A stretch of DNA of 64,000 nucleotides from Thermophilibacter mediterraneus (GTDB lineage Bacteria; Actinomycetota; Coriobacteriia; Coriobacteriales; Atopobiaceae), in assembly GCF_900119385.1 (NCBI RefSeq), contig NZ_FPKO01000009.1:457405-521404 (forward strand), in the 5' to 3' direction. The translations under genes were made by a program, and so were the position numbers. Of this stretch, positions 24,870-54,541 are shown one piece after another; the first letter of the stretch is position 1, and each line of letters starts with the position of its first letter. The notes beneath the pieces are model-generated. The model ran no database searches and was not told the origin of the DNA. It worked only from the letters and a program-made list of their open reading frames with translations.

Positions 24870-24934
24870 ATTGTGGGCAAGGTGACGTAACCGCTGGTAA
24901 AACGTTCACGATTACCACATAACCAATGCCTCTA

Positions 24935-26860
<1,926 letters not shown>

Positions 26861-26920
26861 GTGCTGCTCCTCGGGTTGCCGCCGCCCCGGCGACCAGCGG
26901 CGCACCGGGGCCGTGCGCGG

Positions 26921-27472
26921 CTAGTGCTTGTAGACCTCGGGCTTGAGGATACCGATGTAGGGAAGGTTGCGGTAGCGCTCGGCGAAGTCAAGGCCGTACC
27001 CGACGATGAACTCGTCGGGCACATGGGCGCCCACGTAGCGGGGCTTCACCGCGGGCTCGTTGCCGGGAACGTCCTTCACGAGGAAGGCGGCCACCTCGAC
27101 AGAGGCGGGGTTGCGCCCCTTGAGCAGGTTGATGAGGTACGAGAGGGTGAGACCCGAGTCGAGGATGTCCTCGATGATGAGGACGTCGCGACCCTCGATC
27201 TTGGTGTCGAGGTCCTTGACGATGCGCACGACGCCCGAGCTCTTGAAGCCGTCGCCGTAGCTCGACACGGCCATGAAGTCGATCGCCATGGGACACTCGA
27301 TGGCGCGCATGATGTCGGCCATGAAGACCACCGCGCCGCGCAGGACGGCGACTACCAGCGGGTTCTTGTCGGCGTAGTCGCGAGTGATCTCCTCCCCCAT
27401 GCGACCAACGATCTGGCGGATGTCCTCCTCGCCCAGCAGGACCTCCTTGACGTCCGGGTGCAGCTCACCCAT
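26921..27472 (-). CDS. hpt: Hypoxanthine phosphoribosyltransferase
   Basis: Purine salvage: hypoxanthine or guanine + PRPP to IMP or GMP. 183 residues from the ATG at 27472 (AAAGGGGAGCGCA). PRPP loop DVLIIEDILDSGLTLSYL and the purine-contact end VGYGLDFAERYRNLPYIGIL are intact. Between tilS and ftsH as in Bacillus-type clusters. Confidence 0.95.
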   Translation of the reverse strand: MGELHPDVKEVLLGEEDIRQIVGRMGEEITRDYADKNPLVVAVLRGAVVFMADIMRAIECPMAIDFMAVSSYGDGFKSSGVVRIVKDLDTKIEGRDVLIIEDILDSGLTLSYLINLLKGRNPASVEVAAFLVKDVPGNEPAVKPRYVGAHVPDEFIVGYGLDFAERYRNLPYIGILKPEVYKH

Positions 27473-27543
27473 TGCGCTCCCCTTTCCTGGCGCCGCGCGA
27501 CCCCATGCGCCCGGCATGACTGCACACAGCATAGCGCAGGCGG

Positions 27544-29049
27544 CTACGCTCCGGAAACGAGGGTCAGCTCGAGCAGCCACTCGGTCTGCGGGACGCATCG
27601 TGCGCGCTCGTCGGCGCGCACCCCCGCGACCCAGAGAACGGGCCCGGTGGGCGAGGCGTGCACGACGGGCACAAGCGCGCGGTCCGCGCGGGACATGTGC
27701 GTCTCGCCGAGGAGGTCAGAGAGCTTCTTTGACTGCCCGTGCATGCCGAGCGGACACAGCAGCTCCCCCGCGCGCGGCGCATCGACCCACAGCCTGCCGC
27801 CGCGCGCAGGGTCCACGCCAGCCGCCACGGCGTCGAGCAGCACCGACTCGCCGGACCACTCGAGCGCGTGGGAGCGCGCGTATGCCGGTACGTCCGTGGC
27901 ACGCGGCGCGCGCAGCACCCGAGCCTCGAGCCCCCTCCCGCCCGGAAGCTCGAGGCGTCCCGGCACCTCGAGCCACGACGCGATGACGCGCGGGTCCGCG
28001 GAGCGCGCGCGAATGCTCAGGAGGGCGTGCTCGACGCGGACGTCGACGCCCAGGGGGACCGTGAGCGACCCCTCGCCCGCCGCGACCGCGGCGAGCACGC
28101 CCGCGACGTGACGCGCCTCGAGCCGGGCCTCGGGACAGAGCGACAGCACGGCCTCGCGCACCACGCGGCGCGCGATCGCGACCTCCGTCGCCCCGAGACG
28201 CGCGGCGTCGAGCACGACAAGGCCGTCGCCGCGCCGACGCGTGAGGTCGCGCAGCGCGCGCGACGCCACCGCGGTCAGGTAGGCGTCCTCGTCGGACAGA
28301 ATGTCGCAGGTGGTGGCGAGACTCTGGACCACGCGCGGGTTGCGCTCGCGCGCAACGGGCATGACCTCGTGGCGCACGAAGGCCCTGAGGTAGCGCGTGT
28401 CGGCGTTGGTGGCGTCCTCGCGCCAGACGATGCCGCGCATCCTGAGGAGGTCGCAGAGCTCGTCGTGCGTTCGGTCGAGAAGGGGGCGCACGATCCGGTT
28501 GCGCCGGCGCGGAATCGACGAGAGCCCCGCGGCGCCCGTGCCGCGAATCGCGTTCATGAAGAAGGTCTCCGCGCGGTCGTCCGCCGTGTGCGCGGTGAGG
28601 ATGCGAGCCGCGGAGCGGGGCGTGCCGAGAGCCGCGGAGAGCTCGTTGGCGAGGCGCGACGCCTCCTCGTAGCGCGCGATCCTCCCCGCGTTCTCGACGT
28701 TGCCGTCCCCACGAGCCGCGATCTCGGCGGCATCGATCCTCCTGATGGTGCAGGGAATGCCATATCGCCCGGAGAGGTCGCGCACGAACTCCTCGTCCTC
28801 CTCGGCGTCGAGGCCGCGCAGGCCGTGGTTGACGTGCAGCACGTGGAGCCGCTCGCGGGCGATGCGCGCAAGGCCTCGGCCGTCGTCGATGTCGAGGCTC
28901 GAGGTCGCCGCGAGCACGAGGAGCGCCGTCGAGTCCGCCCCGCCCGAGACCATGAGCACCACGGGGGCCGACAGACCCTCGTCAGTCCTTCCGCTCGGGC
29001 GGTCGAACCGACTTCTGGCAATAGCGTATCGACGCGAGACGCTCGGCAT
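27544..29049 (-). CDS. tilS: tRNA(Ile)-lysidine synthase
   Basis: Converts C34 of the AUA-reading tRNA-Ile to lysidine with ATP and lysine. 501 residues. N-terminal PP-loop MVSGGADSTALLVLA, then LHVNHGLRG, LTAHTADDRAETFFMNAIRG (His/Asp of the active site) and RPLL. C-terminal TilS domain ends in VLWVAGVRADER. Starts divergently from the WalJ-like gene across ~80 bases. Confidence 0.93.
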   Translation of the reverse strand: MPSVSRRYAIARSRFDRPSGRTDEGLSAPVVLMVSGGADSTALLVLAATSSLDIDDGRGLARIARERLHVLHVNHGLRGLDAEEDEEFVRDLSGRYGIPCTIRRIDAAEIAARGDGNVENAGRIARYEEASRLANELSAALGTPRSAARILTAHTADDRAETFFMNAIRGTGAAGLSSIPRRRNRIVRPLLDRTHDELCDLLRMRGIVWREDATNADTRYLRAFVRHEVMPVARERNPRVVQSLATTCDILSDEDAYLTAVASRALRDLTRRRGDGLVVLDAARLGATEVAIARRVVREAVLSLCPEARLEARHVAGVLAAVAAGEGSLTVPLGVDVRVEHALLSIRARSADPRVIASWLEVPGRLELPGGRGLEARVLRAPRATDVPAYARSHALEWSGESVLLDAVAAGVDPARGGRLWVDAPRAGELLCPLGMHGQSKKLSDLLGETHMSRADRALVPVVHASPTGPVLWVAGVRADERARCVPQTEWLLELTLVSGA

Positions 29050-46425: not shown

Positions 46426-46974
46426 CTACAGCAGGCGATGCTCGAATCGGCCGTTCTCGTAGACTCCGTAGCTGGCAGTGCCGTCCTTGGGAATGCCCGC
46501 CGAGCCGGGGTTGAAGACCCAAGCGCCGTGCTCCGAGCTCATCTCGCTCACCTTGATGTGCGTGTGCCCGTAGACGATCGCGGAGCGGTCGGGCAGCGCG
46601 GGCCATCGGTCGACGCTGTTGTGGTAGCCCGGGCCCCAGACGTGCCCATGCGTGAGGAAGAGGGTGTACGGGCCGCCATCGACGGTCGGGTCCACCAGGA
46701 TGTTGTGGTCTGCCATGCAGGGAAAGCCCAGGACCATCTGGTCGACCTCGGCCTCGCAGTTGCCGCGGACGGCGATCACACGATCCGCTATGGAGTTGAG
46801 CATCTCGATGACGCGCTTGGGGGCATAGTCTGCAGGCAGGTCGTTTCGGGGCCCGTGGTAGAGCAGGTCGCCGAGGAGCACGACGCGGTCGGGCCCCTCG
46901 GCCTCGATGGCGGACATGAGGCGGGCGCACGCATCGGCGGCGCCATGGATGTCGGAGGCGATAACGAGCTTCAT
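46426..46974 (-). CDS. YfcE/MJ0936-type metallophosphoesterase
   Basis: 182 residues from the ATG at 46974 (AAGGGAACTCCC). Dimetal phosphoesterase motifs: IASDIHGA, LLGDLLYHGPRN, VRGNCEAEVD, LTHGHVWG and VYGHTHIK, all present. Relatives hydrolyse phosphodiesters such as bis-pNPP or cyclic nucleotides; the natural substrate is unknown. The start overlaps the stop of the chelatase gene in ATGA, so translation is coupled. Confidence 0.85.
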   Translation of the reverse strand: MKLVIASDIHGAADACARLMSAIEAEGPDRVVLLGDLLYHGPRNDLPADYAPKRVIEMLNSIADRVIAVRGNCEAEVDQMVLGFPCMADHNILVDPTVDGGPYTLFLTHGHVWGPGYHNSVDRWPALPDRSAIVYGHTHIKVSEMSSEHGAWVFNPGSAGIPKDGTASYGVYENGRFEHRLL

Positions 46975-47681
46975 GGGAGTTCCCTTCGAACGTGTTGGAC
47001 AACGAGCGCGCGAACCGCGGGCAGCTCGGCGAGCGCGTGGGGCCACCGCTCGACCACGCAGCCCGCGCGCCCGAGCTCGACGCTCAGGTCGACGAGGACG
47101 TCGCGACGGGCGTGATGCCCGAGCGACATGAGGAGGGGGCCGAGAAGAACCGTGTCGCCGGGGCGCGTGCTCAGACGACCTGCCAGGCTCGAGGGCGCTC
47201 CCACGAGGACGTCCGCCCGACCCGATCGGCGCAGCGCGGCCTCGAGCCGGGCGAACGACGCCTCGCACTCGGCGCCGCGGTGCCCCGCCAGCGCGACGAC
47301 GCGCCCCGGGCGCGCGGGGAGCGCCCCATCGAGCGCGGAGGCCACGGCCTCAAAATCCCCCTCGCTCGAGAGCAGGGGCGGCGCGAGCCGAAGCTCGTCG
47401 AAGCCCGGCGACGCGGCGAGGACGGCGGCGGCGCACTCCCCCTGCAGCCGGCCGTCTGCCACGTGCGTGGTCGCCACGAGGGCGCGGCGGACCCCCGCCG
47501 AGCGCAGCTCGGCAAGGACCTCCGGGACCGTCGGCCCGACCGGTCGCCCGCCCGTCCTTGCCCGAATCGTGACGTCGGCGCGCACGGCCGAGGTCAGCTC
47601 GTCGACGAGCCGCGCGACGCCCGCGTCGTCGCGCTCTCCCGACAGGCAGCCGGCAATCACCAGCGCGTCAAAATGGTTCAA
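46971..47681 (-). CDS. Probable CbiK-type sirohydrochlorin chelatase, divergent
   Basis: About 236 residues from a TTG at 47681; GTG starts at 47702 and 47660 are alternatives. Sequence: PTVPEVLAELRSAGVRRALVATTHVADG, VVALAGHRGAECEASFARLEAAL and PLLMSLGHHARRDVLVDLSVELGRAGCVVE follow the order of the CbiK half-domains, with the two metal-insertion histidines retained in AGHRG and GHHARRD. The usual N-terminal SFGTS motif is not obvious. Product would be siroheme or cobalt-sirohydrochlorin. The first codons come from a dispersed palindrome. Assignment is moderate; it is close to the siroheme-type reductase gene. Confidence 0.55.
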   Translation of the reverse strand: MNHFDALVIAGCLSGERDDAGVARLVDELTSAVRADVTIRARTGGRPVGPTVPEVLAELRSAGVRRALVATTHVADGRLQGECAAAVLAASPGFDELRLAPPLLSSEGDFEAVASALDGALPARPGRVVALAGHRGAECEASFARLEAALRRSGRADVLVGAPSSLAGRLSTRPGDTVLLGPLLMSLGHHARRDVLVDLSVELGRAGCVVERWPHALAELPAVRALVVQHVRRELP

Positions 47682-47698
47682 AAGTGACTGTCCCTTTT
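47680..47698. repeat. Dispersed palindrome, copy 2 (degenerate)
   Basis: Core AAAAGTGACTGTCCCTTTT identical to copy 1, but the flanks (TTC on the left, CCACG on the right) do not pair, so only the AAAAG/CTTTT arms remain. It lies at the 5' end of the chelatase gene, six bases after the NifX-like stop. Confidence 0.7.
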
Positions 47699-47703
47699 CC
47701 ACG

Positions 47704-48066
47704 TCAGTGGTGGCAGGCGTGCTCCTCGCCCATGACGGGGAGCGTTCCGGCCGCCGCCATCCGGGCGACGTCGCCCACGCCCGGGGTCTGGTTCTCAAAG
47801 TAGACGGTGATCCCGGCCTGAGCGAACCCCATCATCGGCCGCATGCCCATTCCGGCCGCCACGATGGCGTCGATGCCGTTCTGCGCGAGGAGCGCCACGG
47901 GGCGCATGCAGCCGCCCTCCTCGTGGGGCGGGTTCTCAATGACGCTGACCTCGCCCACCGTGCCATCCTGCACGTCGACCACGGTGAAGCAGTCGCAGTG
48001 GCCGAAGTGGCCGGAGCGCTCGCAGTCGAGCCCGCCCTTGCCGATGGTGGGGATGGCAACCTTCAT
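47704..48066 (-). CDS. NifX/NifB-associated Fe-S/Fe-Mo cluster-binding-type protein
   Basis: 120 residues from the ATG at 48066 (GAGAGGAGCATTC). Dinitrogenase iron-molybdenum cofactor domain: MKVAIPTIGKGGLDCERSGHFGHCDCFTVVD, IENPPHEEGGCM and LLAQNGIDAIVAAGMGMRP. Three extra cysteines (DCERSGHFGHCDC) and EEHACHH at the end could bind metal. No nitrogenase is present, so a role in metal-cluster handling is inferred. It lies next to the chelatase gene. Confidence 0.8.
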   Translation of the reverse strand: MKVAIPTIGKGGLDCERSGHFGHCDCFTVVDVQDGTVGEVSVIENPPHEEGGCMRPVALLAQNGIDAIVAAGMGMRPMMGFAQAGITVYFENQTPGVGDVARMAAAGTLPVMGEEHACHH

Positions 48067-48183: not shown

Positions 48184-48987
48184 TCACGCCCCGACGAGGC
48201 CGAGCTCCTCGAGGACCCGGGCGACCCCGTCGTGGTCGTTGTCGGGCGCGAGCAGCGCGGCGCGGTCGCGAAGCTCGGCCGGCGCGTTGCCCATGAGGTA
48301 GCCGCGACCCACCGCCTCGAGCATGGGGAGGTCGTTGTAGTGGTCTCCGAAGGCGATGGCGTCGACGGGGTCGAGGCCCCAGAGGTCGCAGAGCGTGCGG
48401 ACCGCGGCGGCCTTGCTCGTGCCCGCCGGCATGACCTCGATCAGCGTGTCCGACGACACGGCGATGGACAGGTCGGGAAAGCGCTCGCGCAGCCGAAGCT
48501 CCACCTCGGGGGTGCGACCGCGCGCGCAGAGGCAGAGAATCTTCTGCACCTCGTCGCGCTCGATCGAGGAGACCGACCCCTCGCGCGCCCGTGCCATCAC
48601 GATTCGCTCCTCGGCCACCAGGCGCGGGTCGCTCCGGTCGGGGGCGACCCAGTCCTCGAAGGAGTACGCGCTCCAGGTCGCGGGGAGGCGCTCCGCCTCG
48701 ACAAAGTCCACGATCTCCTGGGCCCGGGCGCGCGAGAAGCCGTGATGGTGAATGACGCGTCGGCTCTCGTCGAGGATGACGCCGCCGCTCTGGGTGACGA
48801 CGGTGCATGAGATCCCCTGCCCCTCGAGAAGGGGGTAGGTGCCGGTCATCCCGCGCGCCGTCACGATGACGAAGGGCACGCCCGCCTCCTGCACCTCCGC
48901 GATCGCGCGCCGCGTCCGCGGCGTGATCCGATGCTCGGAGTTGATGAGCGTGCCGTCGATGTCGCTGAAAACCGCCGTTCTGGGCAT
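48184..48987 (-). CDS. Cof-type HAD phosphatase
   Basis: 267 residues from the ATG at 48987 (CGGGGGACCC). HAD motifs: FSDIDGTLINSEHR (nucleophile Asp), FVIVTARG (motif II), SKAAAVRTLC (Lys) and AIAFGDHYNDLPMLE (Mg Asp). The C2B cap fits Cof/YbiV-like sugar-phosphate or FMN phosphatases. Specificity unknown. Divergent from the fusion oxidoreductase across ~145 bases. Confidence 0.9.
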   Translation of the reverse strand: MPRTAVFSDIDGTLINSEHRITPRTRRAIAEVQEAGVPFVIVTARGMTGTYPLLEGQGISCTVVTQSGGVILDESRRVIHHHGFSRARAQEIVDFVEAERLPATWSAYSFEDWVAPDRSDPRLVAEERIVMARAREGSVSSIERDEVQKILCLCARGRTPEVELRLRERFPDLSIAVSSDTLIEVMPAGTSKAAAVRTLCDLWGLDPVDAIAFGDHYNDLPMLEAVGRGYLMGNAPAELRDRAALLAPDNDHDGVARVLEELGLVGA

Positions 48988-49133: not shown

Positions 49134-51710
49134 ATGAGGTACCTGATCGTCGGCGGCGTTGCCGCCGGGACCAAGACCGCGGCAAAGATCAAACGATGCG
49201 ACCGAGACGCGGAGGTCAAGGTCGTCACCAAGGGCCAGGACATCAGCTATGCGGGATGCGGCCTGCCCTACTACGTGAGCGGGGACATCCCCACGCGCGA
49301 GGGGCTCATCGTCAACACGCCGGCGGCCTACGCTGGCCTCACCGGCGTGGAGGTCGAGACCGGCGTGGAGGCGACCGCGCTCGACGCGGCGGCGCACGAG
49401 GTGAGCGTTCGGCGCTCCGACGGCACCGTCGGCGTCGAGAAGTACGACCGGCTGATCGTCGCGACGGGCGCCGTGCCCTTCGTTCCCCCCGTGCCGGGCA
49501 CCGACCTCCCGGGGGTCTTCTGCATGCGCACGCCCGATGATGCCTGCGGCCTGCGCGACTACGTCGAGCGGGAGGCGGCGCGGCGGGCCGTGGTGGTCGG
49601 CGCGGGCTTCATCGGCCTCGAGTGCGCCGAGGGGCTGCTGGCGCGCGGGCTCTCTGTCACCGTGGTCGACGCCATGCCGCAGATTCTGCCCAACGTCTTC
49701 GACCGGGAGATGTCCGACTTCGCAAAGCGGCAGCTCAAGGCCGCGGGCGTCCGCGTGGTCAACGGAGCCACGCTCACCGGGCTCTCGGGCGAGGGCCGCA
49801 TCCGGTCCGTCGAGACGAGCGCCGGCTCCTTCCCTGCCGACGTCGTGGTCCTGGCGATCGGCATCAGGCCCGCCACGCGCTGGCTCGAGGGGTCGGGCGT
49901 CGAGACCGTCAAGGGCTGCGTGCTCGTGAACGAGTACGGCGCCACCAACCTCCCCGACGTCTACGCCGCCGGCGACTGCGCCGAGGTGCGCAACTTCATC
50001 ACGGGCGAGCCGCAGTGGAGCGCCATGGGGTCGACGGCCAACATCTGCGGGCGCGCCATCGCCCGCACGCTCACGGGCACGCCCACGGCATACCCCGGCG
50101 CGCTCGGCACGGGCGTCGTGCGTCTCCTGCCCACGCTCAACGGCGGGCGCACGGGCCTCACCGAGGAGGCGGCGGTCGCGGCGGGCATGGAGCCGGAGTC
50201 CGTCGTCTGCGTGGTCGACGACAAGGCGCACTACTACCCCGGCTCGTCGAGCTTCTTCATCAAGCTCATCGCCTGCCGCAAGACGCACCGGCTGCTCGGC
50301 GTTCAGGTCCTCGGCGCGGGCGCGGTGGACAAGGTCGTCGACGTGATGGTCACGGCGCTCTACCAGAAGATGCGCGTCGAGGACCTCGACCTCATGGACC
50401 TCTCCTACGCCCCGCCCTTCTCGACCGCCATCCACCCGCTGGTCACGGCCGGATACATCCTCGAAAACAAGCTCTCTGGCGAGCTCGAGAGCTTCTCGCC
50501 CGCGCAGTACGCCTCCGGCGAGGCCGCGAGCTACGAGGTGCTCGACGTCCTCCCGGCGCCCACGATTCCCGGGGCGCGCTGGGTGGACCTCACCAAGATC
50601 GGCCCGGACGGGATCGAGGGGGTCGCTCGCGACGCAAAGGTCCTTCTCGTCTGCGCCAAGGGCAAGCGCGGCTACTTCGCGCAGAACCGCCTCAAGGCGG
50701 CCGGCTACACGGCGACGCGCGTGCTCGAGGGCGGCATCACGTTCAACGAGGTGCGCGTTCCGCGCCGCGACTCCAAGCTGCCCGCAGCCGAGATCAAGCG
50801 CCTCAAGGGGCTGGGGTGCCTTCAGGACAAGCGCTACGACGATGTCTTCAACATCCGCGTGATCACGCGCAACGGGAAGATCACCGTGGACGAGCAGCGC
50901 GCCGTTGCCGAGGCTGCCGAGCGGTTTGGCTCCGGCGAGGTCACCATGACGACGCGCCTCACGCTGGAGATCCAGGGGGTGCGCTACGAGCAGATCGAGC
51001 CGTGCATAGCCTTCCTGCAGGACCACGGCCTGGACGCGGGCGGCACCGGCTCAAAGGTGCGCCCCGTGGTCTCCTGCAAGGGCACCACGTGCCAGTACGG
51101 CCTCATCGACACCTTTGAACTCTCCGAGAAGCTTCACGAGCGCTTCTACGTGGGCTATCACGGGGTGGAGCTCCCCCACAAGTTCAAGATCGCCGTGGGC
51201 GGCTGTCCCAACATGTGCGTCAAACCCGACCTCAACGACCTGGGCATCGTCGGCCAGCGCGTGCCCCAGATCGACCTTGGCAAGTGCCGCGCGTGCAAGG
51301 TCTGCCAGGTCGTGAGGGCCTGCCCCATGGGCGACGCGCAGGTGGGCGCGGACGGGAAGGTCACCATCGACGCCGCCGCGTGCAACCACTGCGGACGCTG
51401 CGTGGGCAGCTGCCCGTTCGGGGCCGTCGAAGAGGGGCTCGCCGGCTACAAGGTCTACATCGGCGGGCGCTGGGGCAAGAAGACGGCGCACGGCCGGGCG
51501 CTCGACAAGATCTTCACGAGCGAGGACGAGGTCATGGGCGTGGTCGAGCGGGCCATCCTCTTCTTCCGCGACGAAGGCGAGTCGGGCGAGCGCTTCGCCG
51601 ACACCGTCGCGCGCCTCGGGTTTGACTACGTGCAGGACAAGCTGCTGACGGCCCCGATCGACAAGGAGGCCATCCTGGCCAAGGACGTCACCGGCGGCGC
51701 CACCTGCTAG
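49134..51710 (+). CDS. CoADR-rhodanese-sulfite reductase-ferredoxin fusion
   Basis: 858 residues, four modules in one chain. (1) ~1-450 flavoprotein disulfide reductase: FAD motif YLIVGGVAAGTKTA, CoADR-type redox C42 in SYAGCGLPYYV, NAD motif VVVGAGFIGLECAEGL, and VYAAGDCAEV. (2) ~465-545 rhodanese with active C507 in VLLVCAKGKRGYFAQ. (3) ~570-715 siroheme/[4Fe-4S] sulfite-reductase module: TMTTRLTLEIQG (R608) and cluster ligands C648, C653, C691, C695. (4) ~716-765 two [4Fe-4S] clusters (C718, C721, C724, C730; C750, C753, C756, C760). A path NAD(P)H to FAD to FeS to siroheme, with sulfur relayed by rhodanese, is inferred. Substrate (sulfite, polysulfide or thiosulfate) is open. ATG after AAGGAGAGGGGCGCTC. 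Confidence 0.88.
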   Translation: MRYLIVGGVAAGTKTAAKIKRCDRDAEVKVVTKGQDISYAGCGLPYYVSGDIPTREGLIVNTPAAYAGLTGVEVETGVEATALDAAAHEVSVRRSDGTVGVEKYDRLIVATGAVPFVPPVPGTDLPGVFCMRTPDDACGLRDYVEREAARRAVVVGAGFIGLECAEGLLARGLSVTVVDAMPQILPNVFDREMSDFAKRQLKAAGVRVVNGATLTGLSGEGRIRSVETSAGSFPADVVVLAIGIRPATRWLEGSGVETVKGCVLVNEYGATNLPDVYAAGDCAEVRNFITGEPQWSAMGSTANICGRAIARTLTGTPTAYPGALGTGVVRLLPTLNGGRTGLTEEAAVAAGMEPESVVCVVDDKAHYYPGSSSFFIKLIACRKTHRLLGVQVLGAGAVDKVVDVMVTALYQKMRVEDLDLMDLSYAPPFSTAIHPLVTAGYILENKLSGELESFSPAQYASGEAASYEVLDVLPAPTIPGARWVDLTKIGPDGIEGVARDAKVLLVCAKGKRGYFAQNRLKAAGYTATRVLEGGITFNEVRVPRRDSKLPAAEIKRLKGLGCLQDKRYDDVFNIRVITRNGKITVDEQRAVAEAAERFGSGEVTMTTRLTLEIQGVRYEQIEPCIAFLQDHGLDAGGTGSKVRPVVSCKGTTCQYGLIDTFELSEKLHERFYVGYHGVELPHKFKIAVGGCPNMCVKPDLNDLGIVGQRVPQIDLGKCRACKVCQVVRACPMGDAQVGADGKVTIDAAACNHCGRCVGSCPFGAVEEGLAGYKVYIGGRWGKKTAHGRALDKIFTSEDEVMGVVERAILFFRDEGESGERFADTVARLGFDYVQDKLLTAPIDKEAILAKDVTGGATC

Positions 51711-53200: not shown

Positions 53201-53227
53201 GGTACCGTCAAGATTCTTGCGCACTTT
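53201..53227. repeat. Terminal inverted repeat, left
   Basis: Begins GGTACCGTC and contains TTCTTGCGCACTTT, paired with the right end. Confidence 0.88.
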
Positions 53228-53260
53228 CCGACAGCCCCATAGGCCCGCCATCCGGTGCGG

Positions 53261-54421
53261 CTACTCGTCCAGCAGCGTCACGTCCAGGTAGCGGCGGGAG
53301 CCCCACTCGCTCTCGGCGACGTACTTGAGCCTCGCGGTCACGAGCATGAGCGCGCTCCTCCCGTCAGGGAAAGTGCCGACAACGCGGGTTCGCCTGCGTA
53401 TCTCGCGGTTGAGCCGCTCGATGGCGTTGTTGGTCCTGATCCTCCGCCAGTGCTCGCGCGGGAATCGCGTGTAGGTCAGGGTCTCCGCGTACCCCTCGCG
53501 CACGGCCTTCGCGGCCTCCCCGAGCCTCGACGCCTCCAGCTCGGATGCGACCTCGAGCGCCTTGGCCTCGGAGGCCTCGCGCGACTCCATGGCGTGGACG
53601 GCCTTGAGCATGGCCGCGACCTTCGGCCTCTTCGACTTGGGCACCCTGGCCAGCACGTTGCGGTAGAAGTGCACCGTGCACCTCTGGTAGGCGGCCCCCG
53701 GGAACACCTCGGCGATCGAGCCGACCATGCCGGCCGCCTTGTCCCCCGTGAACATGCGTACCCCGCGCAGCCCGCGCGACTTGAGCCACGAGAGGAACTC
53801 CCGCCAGCACTCGGCCGACTCGGTGAACCCCTCGGCCGCGCCTATGACCTCGCGGTAGCCGTCGTCGTTCACGCCGATGGCGACCATCACGGCGACGTTC
53901 TCGTAGGAGCCGCCCCAGCTGCGCTTCAGGTAGATGCCGTCGACGTAGACGTAGGGGTAGGCGCGCTCGAGGGGACGGTTGCGCCACTCCTCGACGGACG
54001 CGAAGGCCTTCTCGTTGAGGTTCGAGACGGTGGAGGCCGAGACGCTCGAGCCCCAGAGGATCTCGCTCACGTCCTCGATGCGCCTGGTGGAGACCCCGGC
54101 GAGGTACATCTCGATCATCGCCTCCTCGACCGAGGTCTCCCGGCGCCGGTAGCGCTCGATGATGGCCGTCGTGAACCGCACGCCCTTGAGCTTGGGCATG
54201 CGGATGGTGACCTCCCCTGACGTCGTCGCGAGCTTCCGCTCGTAGTGCCCGGCGCGGTAGGCCTCGCGGTCGGCGGTGCGCTCGTAGCGCTCGGCGCCCA
54301 CGAGGTCGCCGGCCTCCTCCTCGAGGAGCCCGTTCAGCGTGTCCTCGACGGTCTTCCTGACGAGCTCGCCGAGGTCGGCCCTCAGCGACTCCTCGTTCAA
54401 AGATACAATGGGATCGGGCAT
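53261..54421 (-). CDS. IS256-family (Mutator) transposase
   Basis: 386 residues from the ATG at 54421 (GGAGGTGGACC). DDE residues: first Asp in YPYVYVDGIYLKR, second in MFTGDKAAGMVGSI, and the Glu in NNAIERLNREIRRR. The family signature GVSTRRIEDVSEILWG and the CxxH-like YQRCTVHFYRNVL are intact. The gene is complete, so the element may be active. Confidence 0.95.
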   Translation of the reverse strand: MPDPIVSLNEESLRADLGELVRKTVEDTLNGLLEEEAGDLVGAERYERTADREAYRAGHYERKLATTSGEVTIRMPKLKGVRFTTAIIERYRRRETSVEEAMIEMYLAGVSTRRIEDVSEILWGSSVSASTVSNLNEKAFASVEEWRNRPLERAYPYVYVDGIYLKRSWGGSYENVAVMVAIGVNDDGYREVIGAAEGFTESAECWREFLSWLKSRGLRGVRMFTGDKAAGMVGSIAEVFPGAAYQRCTVHFYRNVLARVPKSKRPKVAAMLKAVHAMESREASEAKALEVASELEASRLGEAAKAVREGYAETLTYTRFPREHWRRIRTNNAIERLNREIRRRTRVVGTFPDGRSALMLVTARLKYVAESEWGSRRYLDVTLLDE

Positions 54422-54514
54422 GGTCCACCTCCAGCATGTTTCTTGTCTAGGCAACTCGAATCATACCGGGGCGGGCCGTGCCCTCCTTCCTTACCTGGAC
54501 GCTATTCCGCTGTC

Positions 54515-54541
54515 AAAGTGCGCAAGAAATTGTACGTTACC
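54515..54541. repeat. Terminal inverted repeat, right
   Basis: Reverse complement begins GGTAACGTAC and shares TTCTTGCGCACTTT with the left end. Confidence 0.88.

Follow-up and report, generated by a model that had tools for sequence, protein, structure and literature searches.

A single gene of the gut bacterium Thermophilibacter mediterraneus encodes an 858-residue protein in which a CoA-disulfide/CoA-persulfide reductase (CoADR/CoAPR)-type flavoprotein and a rhodanese domain are joined to a siroheme/[4Fe-4S] sulfite-reductase module. The fusion belongs to a real and widespread family, common rather than a one-off, and on balance we favour its being a one-chain NAD(P)H-dependent sulfite/thiosulfate reductase which is fed by salvaged tetrapyrrole.

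Domain organisation of the fusion

The open reading frame starts with ATG and ends with TAG, and its position, its length and all of the cysteines named in the initial annotation proved to be correct. The features are given below with positions in the window, the whole stretch of 64,000 nucleotides that was analysed.

49134..51710, + strand: fusion gene (858 aa), CoADR/CoAPR-type flavoprotein, rhodanese and siroheme/[4Fe-4S] sulfite-reductase module with inserted 2[4Fe-4S] ferredoxin
49137..49991, + strand: FAD/NAD(P)H domain, Pyr_redox_2, residues 2-286, with redox-active C42 (Pfam 3e-56)
50145..50435, + strand: dimerisation domain, Pyr_redox_dim, residues 338-434 (Pfam 3.1e-14)
50565..50738, + strand: rhodanese domain, residues 478-535, with active-site loop C507-AKGKR (Pfam 7.2e-5, barely above the cut-off)
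50841..51266, + strand: siroheme sulfite-reductase core, residues 570-711, with R575, R608, R643, K683, K685 and C648, C653, C691, C695
51075..51092, + strand: non-canonical CX4C cluster motif CKGTTC, residues 648-653 (the same in 81/81 rows)
51276..51443, + strand: inserted 2[4Fe-4S] ferredoxin, residues 715-770, with C718, C721, C724, C730 and C750, C753, C756, C760 (Pfam Fer4 families)
51705..51707, + strand: Cys858, C-terminal residue of a GGATC tail, with the stop codon directly after it (Cys last in 81/81)

The initial annotation had placed four modules on one chain and a Pfam search matched them all, with hits to Pyr_redox_2, Pyr_redox_dim, Rhodanese, NIR_SIR_ferr (residues 570-629, 6e-13), NIR_SIR (residues 639-837, 5e-29) and Fer4-type families. 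The ferredoxin, described there as a module following the reductase, is instead inserted inside the NIR_SIR module, as it is in Fsr and AsrC. C42 aligns with a cysteine of the CoA-persulfide reductase 8a56 and C507 with the rhodanese cysteine of the same protein. This domain anatomy would fit the earlier view of a self-contained enzyme drawing on NAD(P)H.

Distribution of the family

Searches of genome contigs yielded 182 related stretches, and the 80 that were listed all cover residues 1-858, one of them from residue 2. They comprise 34 coriobacterial and 46 clostridial-type sequences, the latter grouped by taxon label, with L061 and L083 labelled 'Bacterium' alone. Among 329 genomes of the class that were searched, 39 gave a match over residues 1-858, counting one (G142) in which the fusion carries two stop codons. 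A chance or artefactual origin is ruled out by the full-length relatives and by these 39 genomes. The T. mediterraneus genome itself contains one full-length match; two further places match weakly and only in part, over the ferredoxin region. The fusion tree was built from 42 rows and the models from 51 and 23 rows.

In all 39 coriobacterial fusion genomes the fusion provides the sole NIR_SIR match and, as judged with the NIR_SIR model, the siroheme genes that some of them carry cannot be explained by a second siroheme enzyme.

Conserved residues and altered spacings

The earlier statement that every key cysteine is in place holds for the residues themselves: C42, C507, the four cluster cysteines C648, C653, C691 and C695, for which loss in homologues had been considered, and the eight ferredoxin cysteines are invariant in all 81 aligned rows. 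It does not hold for their spacing, which is altered at two sites throughout the 81 rows. The canonical cluster motif CX5CXnCX3C is not found in any of them; the fusion carries CX4C-Xn-CX3C, one residue short but with the four cysteines kept, while at C648-X4-C653 the aligned Fsr and DsrA sequences and 4/4 AsrC-type proteins have CX5C. In the first ferredoxin cluster C724-X5-C730 occurs where Fsr and AsrC have CX3C. The shortened CX4C motif could signify a changed or lost cluster. The C-terminal cysteine, the last residue in all 81 fusions, is not last in the three annotated AsrC proteins, AsrC alone having been used for this comparison. Judged from these alignments, cluster-motif spacing and the C-terminal cysteine separate the fusion from the Fsr, DsrA and AsrC spacings and from the AsrC ends that were compared.

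Five basic residues, R575, R608, R643, K683 and K685, are also invariant (81/81) and align with R355, R388, R423, K460 and K462 of MjFsr. PMC10229431 assigns sulfite binding in Fsr to R355, R423, K460 and K462 and describes R388 as an assimilatory trait; by that definition, the sulfite-binding Arg, Arg, Lys, Lys set is present as R575, R643, K683 and K685. The rhodanese loop CxxGKR is likewise retained in every row, with C507, G510, K511 and R512 invariant, and the rhodanese domain is therefore under selection.

Predicted structure

Fold searches with the full-length model gave no sulfite reductase among the best 50 rows of each search, the rows being filled by matches to the flavoprotein half, and a further search was therefore made with a separate model of the C-terminal part. 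Residues 547-858 then matched sulfite reductases, in agreement with the siroheme-binding fold that had been proposed at about 570-715. The best Foldseek match was Fsr (7np8, E 4.5e-19, rmsd 9.5) and VIA-align against sulfite reductases gave a Z of 16.2 over 265 aligned residues (rmsd 10.4), the rmsd to Fsr being high. Around the cluster motif (residues 638-654) pLDDT falls below 50, indicating low model confidence. The nearest solved relatives are 8a56, 6pfz and 3icr over residues 1-543 and Fsr 7npa over residues 566-830. Alignments and models together support a protein composed of a CoA-persulfide-reductase half, with C42 and C507, and a putative half-size sulfite-reductase module carrying the sulfite-binding residues of Fsr.

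Gene neighbourhood and siroheme supply

Upstream of the fusion, three genes lie on the opposite strand.

46971..47702, - strand: CbiK-like sirohydrochlorin chelatase, start codon uncertain (PF06180 1.9e-11; NF047852 3e-11)
47704..48066, - strand: NifX/MrpORP-like protein, Nitro_FeMo-Co (PF02579 3.6e-18; synteny)
48184..48987, - strand: HAD hydrolase, divergent neighbour of the fusion (PF08282 7e-54)

The chelatase scores 43 bits to NF047852 against a cut-off of 400, and both His positions of the inspected motifs are kept. The NifX/MrpORP-like gene is a conserved neighbour of CbiK in the Atopobiaceae. The HAD hydrolase is probably incidental to the system, and a functional link between it and the fusion was dropped when no pattern emerged. 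Repeats upstream of the fusion gene look like chance.

Five steps of the siroheme pathway were searched, namely HemB, HemC, CobA, Met8 and CbiK. In the T. mediterraneus genome (99.6% complete) CbiK was found and HemB, HemC, CobA and Met8 were not, and the supply of the cofactor is therefore a real puzzle. Across the 39 coriobacterial fusion genomes HemB occurs in 0, HemC in 4, CobA above the cut-off in 7 and Met8 in 15. The HemC, CobA and Met8 genomes form nested sets, each inside the next (relatedness ignored), and the pathway is thus shortened in order across these genomes. The HemC genomes sit at three places in the fusion tree.

Where they are present, the siroheme genes tend to lie close to the fusion. 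CobA, with HemC where it occurs, is encoded within about 7 kb on the same contig in six of the seven CobA genomes, and on a different contig in the seventh (G134). CbiK and/or Met8 matches occur in the analysed flanks of 31 of 34 coriobacterial loci. Loci and genomes were paired partly through contigs of equal length. One genome (G221) is without HemC, CobA and Met8 and shows no CbiK match in the 16 kb around the fusion.

Cobalamin synthesis is an unlikely reason for the T. mediterraneus CbiK because this genome gives no match at E 0.001 to the CobA model, which in relatives also picks up, more weakly, other methyltransferases. In Collinsella-type genomes with sub-cut-off CobA matches, CbiK and Met8 could have a role in making cobamides as well.

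A binding protein of a heme/B12-type importer was detected in 34 of the 39 fusion genomes, including G142 with a partial match. The five that lack it are the four HemC genomes and G150, which has the fusion and CbiK and is without HemC. G150 and G221 are points against the favoured reading. The distribution against HemC gives a Fisher value of 6e-5 within the fusion genomes, to which the importer search was confined, with relatedness ignored. In T. mediterraneus the Peripla_BP_2-FecCD-ATPase importer is encoded about 380 kb from the fusion; in G221 and G226 importer genes lie directly 3' of it, and in G228 one copy of the binding protein lies near a CobA-type methyltransferase and CbiK-like stretches. 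The cargo could instead be heme, cobalamin or a siderophore. Nevertheless, the gene content suggests that T. mediterraneus probably imports siroheme or a late precursor.

Proposed function and alternatives

In the favoured scheme, C507 would accept a sulfane sulfur from thiosulfate, polysulfide or a persulfide, and sulfite would be freed from thiosulfate. A CoA arm would bring the sulfane sulfur to C42 beside FAD, where NAD(P)H would reduce it to sulfide. Electrons would pass singly from FAD through the two ferredoxin clusters to the siroheme-[4Fe-4S] centre, for the six-electron reduction of sulfite to sulfide. CoADR flavins perform two-electron thiol chemistry, which counts against this FAD-to-cluster transfer. 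We infer a substrate range extended from polysulfide and sulfite to thiosulfate, proposed because both halves would then be used. With no de novo siroheme synthesis, T. mediterraneus would salvage a late tetrapyrrole, sirohydrochlorin or siroheme, taken up probably through the Peripla_BP_2-FecCD-ATPase importer, and the CbiK-like chelatase encoded near the fusion would insert the iron.

A more far-reaching proposal, which we advance only tentatively, is a dedicated siroheme salvage. Synthesis would have been lost stepwise from the upstream end in gut Coriobacteriia and replaced by a Peripla_BP_2-FecCD-ATPase importer of sirohydrochlorin or siroheme serving solely the fusion, and the shortened motif together with a C-terminal Cys arm, a built-in DsrC-like sulfur carrier, would define a new class of siroheme enzyme.

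It is rather improbable that the protein is mainly a CoA-persulfide/polysulfide reductase with little sulfite chemistry, its siroheme module being a structural or sulfur-binding accessory or holding another imported tetrapyrrole such as heme or iron-free sirohydrochlorin. The strongest homology is indeed to CoAPR/Npsr, and both the missing HemB, HemC, CobA and Met8 and the cluster motif one residue short speak for it, but the five Arg/Lys residues of the siroheme site and the four cluster cysteines are invariant and, where siroheme genes are present, they adjoin the fusion, the only NIR_SIR protein there.

Slightly less probable still is a conventional assimilatory sulfite reductase that takes its electrons from a new donor domain, in which the rhodanese is nothing special and salvage reflects ordinary gut auxotrophy. 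R608, the counterpart of the assimilatory trait R388 of Fsr, and the known salvage of precursors for cobamides agree with it (PMC10229431, PMC6461909), whereas the invariant rhodanese loop does not. That the protein is an NADH nitrite reductase built like NirB, and not a sulfur enzyme, is very improbable. In favour of this, three stretches match the NirB model TIGR02374 and many sulfite reductases reduce nitrite as a side reaction (PMC10229431). Against it stand a score far below that model's cut-off, the single NIR_SIR stretch and single NIR_SIR_ferr stretch among the Pfam matches listed, and rhodanese and CoADR cysteines with no evident role in nitrite reduction.

If the one-chain reductase fed by salvage is correct, gut Coriobacteriia and Clostridia possess a widespread and, as far as searched, undescribed enzyme that would make sulfide from thiosulfate or sulfite. 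In Coriobacteriia its activity would depend on an externally supplied siroheme precursor, and gut H2S output would be tied to cofactor sharing. Siroheme auxotrophy would then become directly testable, with a candidate importer already named and with natural genomes that have lost the pathway to different extents. No account of a CoADR-rhodanese-sulfite reductase fusion or of siroheme uptake was found in open literature titles and abstracts, a scope outside which most subscription papers and bioRxiv fall.

Comparison with known systems

Residues 1-543 share the fold and the FAD, NAD(P)H and dimerisation domains of the CoA-persulfide reductase/CoADR-rhodanese/Npsr proteins (E. faecalis 8a56, B. 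anthracis 3icr, A. fulgidus 6pfz, Shewanella 3nta), including the redox cysteine (C42) and the C-terminal rhodanese with its active-site cysteine (C507). The solved chains, of 551-588 residues, stop before the siroheme module, whereas the fusion continues, and it does not reach the NCBIfam cut-offs for CoA-disulfide reductase (TIGR03385, 345.5 bits against 578.8; PRK09564, 359.5 against 458).

Fsr (7np8, 7npa) likewise has a single half-size sulfite-reductase repeat, an inserted 2[4Fe-4S] ferredoxin and the same sulfite-binding residues, but its N-terminal half is an FrhB-type F420H2 oxidase in place of CoADR-rhodanese, and it has a CX5C cluster motif and a CX3C last spacing in the first ferredoxin cluster where the fusion has CX4C and CX5C. 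AsrC, too, has a half-size siroheme module with an inserted ferredoxin and aligns along its length, but it is encoded next to separate asrA and asrB genes, whose products carry the electron-donor part of AsrABC, whereas the fusion is one chain. The fusion does not reach the cut-offs for AsrC (TIGR02912, 98.9 bits against 324.1), DsrA (TIGR02064, 92.8 against 392.85) or DsrB (TIGR02066, 92.2 against 341.5).

NirB combines a pyridine-nucleotide flavoprotein and a siroheme module in one chain, and its model matches the fusion at 224 bits against a cut-off of 578.35. The fusion differs in possessing a rhodanese and a dimerisation domain and only one siroheme repeat. The 25 families listed, of 31 in the Pfam search, do not include Fer2_BFD, the [2Fe-2S] domain of NirB.

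For cofactor supply, the closest parallel is tetrapyrrole precursor salvage for cobamides, for which ALA was the precursor tested (PMC6461909) and C. aerofaciens is a possible precorrin-2 auxotroph (PMC6593275). As described there, cobamide salvagers, like the fusion genomes, have missing upstream tetrapyrrole genes, retained downstream genes and an inferred uptake; their product is a cobamide, whereas in the fusion organism, with only CbiK of the five steps, no user other than a siroheme-type enzyme is evident.

Domain architecture and fold of the fusion protein

The following open reading frame encodes 858 residues:

49134-51710, forward strand, CoADR/CoAPR-type flavoprotein fused to a rhodanese and a siroheme sulfite-reductase module with an inserted 2[4Fe-4S] ferredoxin

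Pfam domains Pyr_redox_2, Pyr_redox_dim, Rhodanese, NIR_SIR_ferr, NIR_SIR and Fer4-type were detected, with the ferredoxin falling within the NIR_SIR match, and the cysteines named in the initial annotation (C42, C507, C648, C653, C691, C695 and eight in the ferredoxin) were confirmed at their positions. Residues 1-543 are matched in sequence and fold by CoA-persulfide reductase, Npsr and CoADR-RHD (for 8a56, sequence E-value 5e-94 and Foldseek 2.6e-57), and VIA comparisons with these relatives gave Z 40-41 and rmsd 2.8-3.0 over 527-529 aligned residues. Cysteines of 8a56 align with C42 and C507; in E. faecalis CoAPR, C42 and C508 are required and C508 is persulfidated in cells, according to PMC9405070.

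Fsr is a sequence match of residues 566-830 and, when residues 547-858 were folded alone, it was also the top structural match, followed by DsrA/B, SiRHP and nitrite reductases. The sulfite-reductase fold proposed from the sequence was thereby recovered (Foldseek 4.5e-19, rmsd 9.5; VIA Z 16.2, rmsd 10.4, 265 aligned). Mean pLDDT values of 84.0 for the whole fusion and 76.8 for its C-terminal part are fair, and confidence is poor at the cluster motif.

Distribution and conserved residues

A peptide-pattern search of genome contigs yielded 182 related stretches. The 80 relatives listed all match residues 1-858 (one, 2-858); 34 of these loci are coriobacterial, and most of the remaining 46 are labelled Lachnospiraceae, Oscillospiraceae or other Clostridia. 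The fusion occurs in 39 of 329 genomes of the class and in 24/25 of the genus, and in the window's own genome once at full length, together with two weak partial matches. In a midpoint-rooted tree of 42 rows, six clostridial rows lie apart from 36 coriobacterial rows.

In MjFsr, R355, R423, K460 and K462 bind sulfite and are conserved across sulfite reductases, while R388 is an assimilatory trait and the canonical cluster motif is CX5CXnCX3C (PMC10229431). R575, R643, K683 and K685 of the fusion align with the former four and R608 with R388, and all five are invariant in the 81 rows (the window fusion and the listed relatives). The same 81 rows carry the cluster motif CKGTTC-Xn-CX3C, a CX4C spacing, whereas CX5C is found in Fsr and DsrA in the alignments listed and in 4/4 AsrC-type sequences, of which three are annotated as AsrC and the fourth is a relative without annotation. 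Likewise, all 81 rows have CX2CX2CX5C as their first ferredoxin cluster, in contrast to CX2CX2CX3C in Fsr and AsrC. DsrC has a sulfur-carrying C-terminal arm and, because C562, between the rhodanese and siroheme modules, and the last residue C858 are invariant among the rows listed, one might speculate by analogy that the fusion has a similar arm.

Missing siroheme synthesis genes

Pathway searches covered HemB, HemC, CobA and Met8. Of the 16 fusion genomes searched first, the nine coriobacterial ones, including that of the window, had neither a HemC match nor an over-cut-off CobA match, and all seven non-coriobacterial ones had both. Among the 39 fusion genomes of the class, HemB was found in none, HemC in four (G134, G145, G174, G218), CobA over cut-off in seven (these four with G173, G175 and G229; G228 has a further sub-cut-off match) and Met8 in 15, the HemC genomes lying within the CobA set and the latter within the Met8 set, nested in pathway order. 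HemC is present in 108 of 329 class genomes and HemB in 11/14 controls, so the searches work. In 39/39 the fusion is the sole NIR_SIR match.

Among 46 clostridial-side fusion genomes of unstated completeness, HemB matched in 25, so some of the 46 may also salvage. Four of them (G009-G012) show HemC but no HemB match, possibly because they salvage porphobilinogen, because HemB was missed or because the genomes are incomplete.

Candidate tetrapyrrole importer and gene neighbourhood

At L010 (genome G221), the fusion is followed by a weakly IsdE-like Peripla_BP_2 protein, a FecCD permease and an ATPase; at L020 (G226) it is followed by the first two and then the contig end, and at L082 by a CbiK-like stretch and genes clustering with the L010 permease and ATPase. 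The L010 binding protein is matched in 34 of the 39 class fusion genomes, the exceptions being the four HemC genomes and G150. In the fusion tree the HemC genomes occupy three places, two of them adjoining importer-bearing sisters. The set in the window's own genome (G000) is:

G000, contig C1, 123598-126972, three-gene importer set (binding protein, permease, ATPase)

Facing the fusion in G145 (L111) are genes for a NifX-like protein, an amino-acid permease, CbiK-Met8, HemC and CobA-HemD, then a metallophosphatase and DnaK. The window retains the order NifX-like, CbiK, metallophosphatase, DnaK, preceded by a HAD gene, and the permease, Met8, HemC and CobA-HemD were not found in its NifX-like-to-DnaK block; we therefore infer that its CbiK is a remnant of a siroheme gene cluster. 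This CbiK is divergent (profile E-value 1.9e-11) and keeps both inspected His positions. In the flanks examined, CbiK matches occur at 27 of the 34 listed coriobacterial loci, and CbiK or Met8 at 31. Many of the Atopobiaceae loci form one common syntenic block and do not count as independent cases, but several Coriobacteriaceae loci are surrounded by other genes. CbiK and Met8 share a single open frame at L103, L104, L005 and other loci, a fused chelatase-dehydrogenase arrangement.

Among the 46 listed clostridial-side loci, flanking siroheme genes were matched only at L082 (CbiK) and L075 (HemC, CobA-HemD). A regulator cluster occurs at 17 (L037, L040, L041, L069 and others), divergent from and adjoining the fusion in 16; the one member tested, from L069, is LysR-type. 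Seven loci carry genes beside the fusion that are presumably NifS/NifU-like.

G142 (L140, L141) is a single MAG which may contain assembly errors. Its fusion gene is interrupted by two in-frame TGA codons within the siroheme core, its CbiK has lost an internal segment, and only part of the binding protein is matched, the 3 kb below it giving no permease or ATPase match. This joint decay is consistent with a shared job. An internal deletion likewise affects the HAD gene, and no stops occur in the NifX-like, AIM24, metallophosphatase and partial DnaK matches.

Other features of the window include:

53261-54424, reverse strand, Mutator-family transposase, which we take to be IS256-like
53201-53227 and 54515-54541, 27-nt inverted repeat (81% complementary) bounding the element 53201-54541
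24926-28111, 1061-residue open frame with no Pfam match at 1e-5, which may be antisense

The transposase element splits an EamA transporter gene, the two parts matching PF00892 on either side.

Proposed mechanism

In the most likely scheme, NAD(P)H would reduce the FAD, and sulfane sulfur would be taken by C507, carried on CoA to C42 and freed as sulfide, a route of the type proposed for CoAPR (PMC9405070). FAD electrons would also pass through the two clusters to the siroheme-[4Fe-4S] centre, where sulfite would be reduced; with thiosulfate as substrate both sites would act in series. Siroheme would derive from imported sirohydrochlorin with iron inserted by CbiK or, where no CbiK is seen (G221), be imported itself. 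Sequence and predicted fold support the component modules, and we infer every electron- and sulfur-transfer step within the fusion.

Comparison with known systems

Salvage of tetrapyrrole precursors is already known for cobamides (PMC6461909), and precorrin-2 auxotrophy has been suggested for Collinsella aerofaciens (PMC6593275). Listings from a search of an open-access collection pointed to neither the fusion nor siroheme salvage, and cofactor salvage by fusion-bearing organisms is a testable question. The fusion falls below the curated cut-offs of CoADR, AsrC, DsrA, DsrB and NirB and departs from the canonical CX5CXnCX3C motif, and it was therefore not filed under any of these. Judged from sequence and model, it would work like a CoAPR joined to an Fsr/AsrC-type module, and we take NirB to be the nearest known one-chain logic.
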